Source: Longimicrobium sp.
Lineage (GTDB): Bacteria; Gemmatimonadota; Gemmatimonadetes; Longimicrobiales; Longimicrobiaceae
Direction of reading: 5' to 3'
DNA: 56,548 nt
Assembly: GCA_036387335.1 (NCBI GenBank)
Contig: DASVTZ010000029.1
Coordinates: forward strand, 1 to 56,548
Part shown: positions 8,402 through 51,858 of the stretch, in pieces
Numbering within the stretch: the first letter of the stretch is position 1
Layout of the letters: each line of letters begins with the position of its first letter
Position numbers and translations under genes: made by a program
The notes under the pieces: generated by a model
The model's input: only the letters and a program-made list of their open reading frames with translations
Told to the model about the DNA's origin: nothing
The model's database searches: none

Positions 8402-8913
8402 CTGCTGATTCCCCGGATGGGCTCTGGATGAGGTGAGCGGAGTAAACTTTCCCTTTACCGCCGCAACCTAAATCGCTCCGCCCTGCGTGAAAAGGCGCGT
8501 ATGCATCTGCATTGTTTCGGACAGGGCGTGTAGAAGGGGCCCGACCATGGGTGTGGTTGGGGTCAGAGCAACAGCAACACCCCGGCGAGGCTTGTGGGCG
8601 CGACAGAAAGCGCACCCGTGCAGCGAACGCGACAGACGGCTTACACAAACCTGGGAATACAAGCCACGGTGAACGGCTTTCCGCTGTTCTTCCTCTCTAT
8701 CTCCATTGTCTTGGTGTGAGTCACGCGGTTGCCGTTCTCGGCGTGCCCCTCCCCGCGCTACGGCAACCGCCCATCCATCGCGTCGCCTGTGCTAGCCCTC
8801 CGCCTTCTCCAACAACCGTTCCAGACGCGGGTCAGATTACCCTGCCGGGGGAGCGCACCGGCAAGCTACACTCCGCGGACACCTGTCCACCCCACCTGTG
8901 ACCAGCAAGCCGC
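8402..8913. other. Intergenic stretch without a convincing gene
   Basis: About 510 bp between the TPR gene (minus) and a membrane-protein gene (plus). The frames here are short, Arg-rich and lack ribosome binding sites or recognisable motifs. It must hold the promoters of both flanking genes, but I cannot assign them. I see no strong hairpin or repeat. Confidence 0.4.
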
Positions 8914-40312: not shown

Positions 40313-40351
40313 AACTGCAGGTGTCACGCGAAGGCGCAAAGACGCGAAGAA
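40313..40351 (+). repeat. Left inverted repeat of the GxxExxY element
   Basis: Positions 40325-40351 match the reverse complement of 40775-40801 with one mismatch in 27. The match continues outward to 40313 with three further mismatches in 12. The core contains CGCGAAGGCGCAAAG. Confidence 0.75.
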
Positions 40352-40372
40352 AGAACGAGGAGGGGAGAAATC

Positions 40373-40771
40373 GTGGAGATCGAGGAGATCATGAAGGAGA
40401 TTGTCGATGCCGCGTACAAGATTCACACGCGGATCGGCCCTGGGCTGTTGGAGAGCGTGTATGAAGTGGTGCTCGCGACGGCTCTGGAGCATCGTGGCCT
40501 CACGGTCGGCAGGCAGGTGCCGATTGCGATCAGGTATGAGGGTATTCAAATCGAAGAAGCTTTCAGAGTGGATCTTCTCGTGGAAAACAGCGTGGTTGTG
40601 GAGCTCAAGTCAGTCGAGAAGATGGCACCGGTGCATGCGAAGCAGCTGCTGACCTATTTACGGCTGATGGACCTGCGCCTGGGGCTGCTGATTAACTTCG
40701 GAGCGCCCACCCTTAAGGAGGGAACTCGTCGAATCGCGAATGCCTACGCTCCACCACGAGGTTTCCTTTAA
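40373..40771 (+). CDS. GxxExxY protein (PD-(D/E)XK-like nuclease fold)
   Basis: GTG 40373 is preferred because AGGAGGGGAG lies five bases before it; an in-frame ATG 40391 is also possible. The 132-residue protein shows IGPGLLESVYEVVL, the motif that names the family, followed by FRVDLLVENSVVVELKSVEK. The latter has the D...E-x-K pattern of PD-(D/E)XK nucleases. The end (HAKQLLTYLRLMDLRLGLLI, NFG) is typical. Function is unknown for the family. The gene fills a 500-bp unit bounded by imperfect inverted repeats, which suggests that gene and repeats move or are maintained together. Confidence 0.85.
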   Translation: MEIEEIMKEIVDAAYKIHTRIGPGLLESVYEVVLATALEHRGLTVGRQVPIAIRYEGIQIEEAFRVDLLVENSVVVELKSVEKMAPVHAKQLLTYLRLMDLRLGLLINFGAPTLKEGTRRIANAYAPPRGFL

Positions 40772-40774
40772 CTC

Positions 40775-40813
40775 TTCTTCGCGCCTTTGCGCCTTCGCGT
40801 GAGCCATGCAGTT
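40775..40813 (-). repeat. Right inverted repeat of the GxxExxY element
   Basis: Reverse-complement partner of 40313-40351; it begins three bases after the GxxExxY stop codon. No target-site duplication is evident outside the repeats. Confidence 0.75.
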
Positions 40814-51751: not shown

Positions 51752-51780
51752 GCGGGCTCCGGTGCTGCGGGAAAACCATC

Positions 51781-51858
51781 ACACAGAGAAAACGGAGGGG
51801 AACAACAAGCCGCAGAGAACCCCTCCTCCTCTTTCAGTACCCCTCTGTGTCTCTGTGT
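51781..51858. repeat. Short inverted repeat between two genes
   Basis: ACACAGAGA (51781-51789) and TCTCTGTGT (51850-51858) face each other across about 60 bp, together with matching CGGAGG and CCTC pieces. It resembles a small miniature repeat; no gene is present in it. Confidence 0.5.

Follow-up and report, generated by a model that had tools for sequence, protein, structure and literature searches.

The closest described counterpart of the arrangement reported here is the REPIN-RAYT system, or REPtron, in which REP palindromes are paired with a TnpA-REP tyrosine transposase; according to two papers, the enzyme gene is a resident that does not move and lies in or beside its own palindromes, while gene-less doublets are found genome-wide (PMC3116915; PMC8266576). 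A second group, the CGTC-tagged palindromes, is dispersed across deep phyla and is not known to have a dedicated transposase (PMC3733652). We analysed a window comprising the whole of a 56,548-nucleotide contig (C29) of the 5.82-Mb genome of a Longimicrobium sp. (G000), in which a gene of the GxxExxY family lies between two inverted arms. A reading of the sequence alone had likened this form to that of REP-associated genes, and of the systems considered this proved the best comparison. Compared with what the REPIN-RAYT papers describe, the likeness extends to hairpins that consist of two inverted arms and are dispersed, a dedicated gene with those same arms on its flanks, gene copies that are single or distinct and are neither moved nor amplified, and a gene and repeat that occur together and co-vary. 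Unlike in REPIN-RAYT, the enzyme here is a predicted PD-(D/E)XK nuclease and not an HUH/Y1 tyrosine transposase, the arms, rows of 8-9 nt units, open with TCAC or ACCAC, and related species can differ in the hairpin type present at a shared site. Since the enzyme is not an HUH transposase, we do not count the GxxExxY system as a member of REPIN-RAYT. With the CGTC-tagged palindromes it shares dispersal across deep phyla, but the sequence differs. The open-licence part of the literature yielded no published link between GxxExxY and a repeat.

The gene, its arms and the predicted nuclease

The features of the window are collected in Table 1. The imperfect 39-bp inverted repeats that the sequence-only reading had described around the gene are borne out: the two arms, of 39 nt each, match at 35 of 39 positions, and their inner 28 nt, from TCAC onward, contain a single mismatch. 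As that reading also had it, the right arm begins three bases after the stop codon (40769-40771), and arms and gene together occupy 501 bp. The start codon is likely the GTG at 40373, which is preceded by AGGAGGGG at about 40357-40364. Elsewhere in the window, the gene-less hairpin of the CACAGAG type is likely a relative of the gene's arms, while the relation of the weak arm to them is uncertain. A search of the region against Rfam gave no match.

Table 1. Features of the repeat-bracketed gene and of related sequences in the window
Feature	Position	Strand	Remarks
Left arm	40313..40351	+	AACTGCAGGTG + TCACGCGAAG GCGCAAAG ACGCGAAG AA; 8-nt tandem units
GxxExxY PD-(D/E)XK nuclease-like gene	40373..40771	+	132 aa; PF13366 4.7e-42, TIGR04256 3.3e-42
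Right arm	40775..40813	-	inverted copy of left arm, 35/39 identical
Degraded gene-less hairpin, CACAGAG type	51779..51857	+	TCACACAGAG ... CTCTGTGTCTCTGTGTAA; arm motif and sequence
Weak, degraded arm	8628..8719	-	TCACACCAAG ...; arm motif and sequence

Against TIGR04256 the encoded protein reaches 143.5 bits (cut-off 35), which makes it a member, and it also exceeds the PF13366 (PDDEXK_3) cut-off of 22, whereas the profile search returned no Y1_Tnp match. Membership by score is all that these models convey, as their names give neither a function nor a link to repeats. The AlphaFold2 model of the protein (pLDDT 91.5) has a predicted PD-(D/E)XK fold, with an alpha-beta core carrying the D...ExK residues. 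Its nearest structural neighbour is Cas4 (4ic1; Z 8.9 over 100 residues, rmsd 4.3); restriction enzymes and the Holliday-junction resolvase Hjc appear lower among the matches, and beyond the Cas4-like ones these have middling Z scores that may reflect a common arrangement only. Residues H24, D73, E83, K85, Q97 and Y101 are conserved in GxxExxY proteins, K85 being invariant and D73 and E83 nearly so; we take these residues to be the RecB-type QxxxY pattern. On the strength of the predicted fold and these residues, the protein is a PD-(D/E)XK nuclease-like member of GxxExxY, in agreement with the nuclease character first read from its sequence. In searches by sequence, the best PDB hit had an E value of 0.17 and PADLOC gave weak Cas4-like matches only. 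Fold and conserved residues are thus like those of Cas4 and RecB-type nucleases, but GxxExxY consists of one small domain, and no CRISPR genes were found among the neighbours inspected. The comparison with casposons that had also been offered was rejected, as there is no Cas1 and the unit between the arms holds a single gene, that for the PDDEXK_3 protein.

We found a single GxxExxY copy in the whole of G000, and a 90%-identical gene is present in a Longimicrobium record. Of the genomes sampled, 134 of 395 from Gemmatimonadota and 139 of 294 from Planctomycetota carry the family, which also occurs in eight of 72,556 plasmid records and in none of 50,697 phage records. Among the best 80 of 338 relatives, 11 matched gene stretches contain a stop or an unknown residue in the matched frame (L056, L061, L070, L075, L076, L079, L080, L087, L096, L098, L102), and decayed copies may be common.

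Gene-less hairpins and the recurrence of the bracket

The core of the arms, CGCGAAGGCGCAAAG, is frequent across G000, mostly without a gene. Its exact form was listed at 33 places, of which 30 became loci, two of these being the arms of the gene itself. At 27 of the other 28 a second arm closes a hairpin of 69-94 bp (most often 72 bp), the sole exception being L010, so that the gene-less copies of the repeat pair envisaged by the earlier reading do exist. Allowing up to two mismatches, the core has 124+123 matches in G000 against 63+60 for the control, and the hairpin pattern TCACRCNRAGN{40,70}CTNYGYGTGA has 243 forward matches, mostly gene-less, against none for the reversed-pattern control. 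REPINs bear a GTAG (or CGTC) tag at the foot of the palindrome; the arms of the hairpins listed here begin with TCAC. Each arm is built of about three successive units of 8-9 nt, which here read nCGCnAAG on the purine-rich strand. The outer AACTGCATGGC of the gene's right arm also precedes gene-less repeats (L006, L008, L009, C105 and several sites in the related genome G006), and for this reason hairpins with and without the gene look like two forms of a single entity. Contigs that had not been picked for the core contain 13 GAG and six AAG hairpins in G000 (median pairwise identity 0.62 and 0.85, respectively) and 37 GAG and five AAG hairpins in G006. The 72-bp hairpins often lie within a longer, MITE-like unit of about 157 bp (L002-L031, e.g. 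L005, L013, L029, L031), with a left end CCGTTTCTCACGAATCCGTGTGCAT... and a right end ...GCACAGAACTTCTGTCGAGACGG. The outer inverted repeats of this unit are imperfect, and TA sometimes adjoins them.

The generality of the bracket was assessed in three samples not chosen for repeats: 80 cross-phylum loci (the best 80 of 338 relatives), 51 Gemmatimonadota genes and 30 Planctomycetota genes. We define a bracket as an inverted repeat scoring at least 14 between windows on either side of the gene, the controls being 501 window pairs (428 + 73) located 500-1600 bp from GxxExxY genes. A bracket was found around 71 of 161 genes and in none of the 501 controls: 50 of 131 genes against 0 of 428 windows in the first two samples (the former again the best 80 of 338; L318-L332 were excluded, some having been fetched because a hairpin had already been seen), and 21 of 30 against 0 of 73 in Planctomycetota. 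The repeat bracket thus recurs around GxxExxY genes of other phyla. If hairpins and motifs are counted along with brackets, the figures are 90 of 131 and 21 of 30, leaving 50 of 161 genes (41 of 131; 9 of 30), many of them from Sphingomonadales, with none of the three. Around the 80 cross-phylum genes (best 80 of 338), the motif TCACRCNRAG has a density of 2.93 per kb at up to 150 bp from the gene, against 0.03-0.09 beyond 300 bp. Planctomycetota arms usually begin with ACCAC, not TCAC (e.g. ACCACAGAGACACAGAG), some of their units reading CATGAAG, ACGAAT or ACAGAT, and at some loci in other genomes the gene stands beside a hairpin, on one side only.

Gene and hairpins also go together at the level of genomes. 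Hairpin matches on both strands occur in 30 of 395 Gemmatimonadota genomes, namely in 25 of 134 with the gene and 5 of 261 without it (Fisher p 1e-8), or in 17 of 126 and 5 of 261 when the genus itself is left out (p 1e-5). For Planctomycetota, the 18 positive genomes among 294 divide into 16 of 139 with and 2 of 155 without the gene (Fisher p 3e-4). Among 50 gene-bearing genomes of mixed phyla, taken from the 79 loci L033-L111, 20 contain the pattern and none the reversed control. The scans used one narrow hairpin pattern, of which 109 of the 134 Gemmatimonadota and 123 of the 139 Planctomycetota gene-positive genomes have no match. Four of the five gene-negative Gemmatimonadota with matches look like a different CGTCACGC array, and the fifth is G025.

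Several observations lie beside this association. Three gene-negative Gemmatimonadota (G389, G237 and G141; loci L141, L142 and L144) carry another palindromic array with 13-nt units like GACGTCACGCGAAG. Repeat-less GxxExxY genes of Sphingomonadales (e.g. L048, L078, L085, L091, L097, L104, L105, L109, L110) seemingly lie between one and the same pair of coding genes in more than one genus, and are perhaps a domesticated branch. In G422 (C35:74699-75262), three tandem hairpins with a 238-nt period are found about 1.3 kb from a GxxExxY gene (73020-73385).

A stable locus, changing hairpins and a unit letter that follows a residue

We searched ten genomes of the genus. In eight (G000, G001, G002, G004, G005, G006, G008, G009) the gene adjoins the same aminotransferase gene, in G007 it is on another contig, and G003 has no gene at the aminotransferase locus, with gene fragments between hairpins elsewhere. 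Close relatives had been suggested as the place to look for empty sites; the gene-free G003 locus did not show a clean one with a target duplication. The arms of the gene vary within the genus (CGCGAAG, CACAGAG, CGCGGAG, CGCAGAG).

G000 and G006 share 94% identity at the gene locus, and their comparison resolved 13 hairpin sites. Four are kept (C109:58100, 72224, 76947 and L014); four have switched type with their borders kept and their flanks well conserved (L007, L008, L009, L022), L008 differing in three genomes; and five are present in one genome only (L002, L015, L025, C109:53457 and G006 C116:147337), with no clean target duplication seen at the absent sites. Because an AAG core was the criterion by which the L sites were picked, they give a biased view of the direction of switching, which cannot be read from them. 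G006 has AAG-type gene arms like those of G000, yet 37 of its 42 hairpins are of the GAG type, which indicates that the content of a genome does not simply follow its resident gene. A cluster of partial GxxExxY remnants with a hairpin is found in G408 (C60, L400), and its homology to the intact locus L377 begins exactly at the TCAC of the hairpin.

Five genomes with several copies (G463, G593, G550, G717, G527) provide 22 genes and 40 within-genome pairs. Identity between paralogues is 40-58%, a distance at which none can be a recent copy. Brackets surround 16 of the 22 genes, and the arms mostly differ between paralogues of one genome. Examples of such different arms are ACCACAAAGGCACGAAG, ACCACAGAGAAACAGAG, AACACGAATTAGACGAAT and GCCACAGAAAAACACGG in G463, and in G118 two genes are accompanied by different hairpin families, each family having further copies. 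Contig C1 of G118 also contains more long hairpin families (ACTCACGTGAGT..., GAGTACGGAGTAAGG..., ACCCACAACCCAGAACCC...; e.g. at 2587370-2794124 and 3448598-3460065), for which no partner gene was identified.

The unit's AAG/GAG letter requires four changes when mapped on a 54-gene tree, against 18.5 +- 1.9 when shuffled, and with 88 genes nine against 28.9 +- 2.3; the G/A letter that precedes it by three positions shows no such agreement with the tree (9 against 11.1 +- 0.9). The trees omit L032 and L133, the careful tree also L192, likely a chance motif, and 84 of the 177 genes available for the larger letter analysis had no clear unit label. Residues 13 and 109 of the protein, numbered on P0001, which begins six residues before the GTG, separate the AAG from the GAG types. 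In a held-out set of 43 genes outside the first set, residue 13 was correct in 29 of the 31 callable genes (27 of 29 without a rule for V that was added after the 88-gene set had been seen) and residue 109 in 33 of 42, while the nearest protein of the first set by overall similarity was correct in 23 of 43. These sequence comparisons suggest that the protein recognises the repeat unit. An AU test did not reject a single clade of all AAG-type proteins (p 0.40, careful tree); convergent residues in the P0001 clade were therefore discarded as a proof, since the test allows one AAG clade. Independent-pairs tests of residue against unit had too few pairs to decide.

Explanations of the gene-hairpin link

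We consider it rather probable that GxxExxY is a small PD-(D/E)XK nuclease that has a hairpin family of its own and operates in the manner of REPIN-RAYT without belonging to it. The protein would read the repeat unit and cut the hairpin, either as an extruded cruciform or in single-stranded form at replication, and the break would be repaired by copying another hairpin of the genome. Such repair would convert sites to the type favoured by the resident nuclease and so spread the hairpins, while the gene would stay put as a long-lived resident, as a RAYT gene stays while REPINs spread. We infer this route of spread, cutting followed by repair from another hairpin; it would agree both with hairpins that change type where they stand and with the fact that clean ends are missing. 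More tentatively, and with doubts that outweigh our confidence, we hypothesize that the GxxExxY proteins provide the enzymes for a second nuclease-hairpin class that evolved independently and is widespread in bacteria, in which each would read its own 8-9 nt unit by an amino-acid code (T at residue 13 for GAG, and either A or M there for AAG), cut hairpins and copy its unit type into existing sites by break repair, the hairpins being rewritten in place rather than transposed.

The hairpins might instead be spread by another transposase, with GxxExxY genes carried or tolerated in them. The 157-bp units around the 72-bp hairpins of G000, with their outer inverted repeats sometimes at TA, agree with such a passenger role and are, we presume, reminiscent of MITEs of a DDE transposase; some genomes, moreover, have hairpins and no gene. 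Yet brackets built of a unit specific to the gene are found in several phyla, and the unit letter tracks a protein residue better than overall similarity does. As for a candidate transposase, Y1_Tnp (PF01797, the RAYT family) is found in 12 of 17 hairpin-bearing genomes, being absent in G004, G017, G122, G118 and G312, and none of 12 Y1_Tnp loci has the motif within 300 bp. RAYT was thus rejected as the partner of the hairpins, and the passenger explanation as a whole appears improbable.

We think it similarly improbable that GxxExxY serves in housekeeping or defence as a nuclease against hairpins or cruciforms, in which case the hairpins next to the gene would be self-regulatory sites and the dispersed ones leftovers kept in check. 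The predicted fold, nearest to Cas4 and with Hjc among the matches, would suit such a nuclease, as would a gene that is vertical in the genus and almost never found on plasmids or phages, but this explanation does not account for the fact that hairpin-bearing genomes mostly have the gene, nor for arms that are particular to each paralogue.

A role at the level of RNA, in which the arms would pair the 5' and 3' ends of the mRNA for expression control or supply a repeat-RNA antitoxin as in type III toxin-antitoxin, seems to us very unlikely. Both arms may lie in the transcript, and they consist of tandem short units; against this stand the empty Rfam search, the same hairpins at many gene-less places and the loci with a hairpin on one side only.

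Least likely of all is the minimal self-mobile element of 501 bp that the sequence-only reading had proposed: the gene does sit inside inverted arms and the G408 remnants do begin at a hairpin's TCAC, but the locus shared by eight of ten genus genomes, the absence of recent duplicates among 40 paralogue pairs and of a clean empty site with a target duplication, and the rarity in plasmid and phage records led us to reject it as the main reading.

Under the preferred reading, a nuclease with its own hairpin family, the link between gene and hairpin offers GxxExxY a candidate function, a DNA substrate and a testable prediction at the level of single residues. If it is true, a REP-like pairing of nuclease and repeat arose more than once, with unrelated enzymes.
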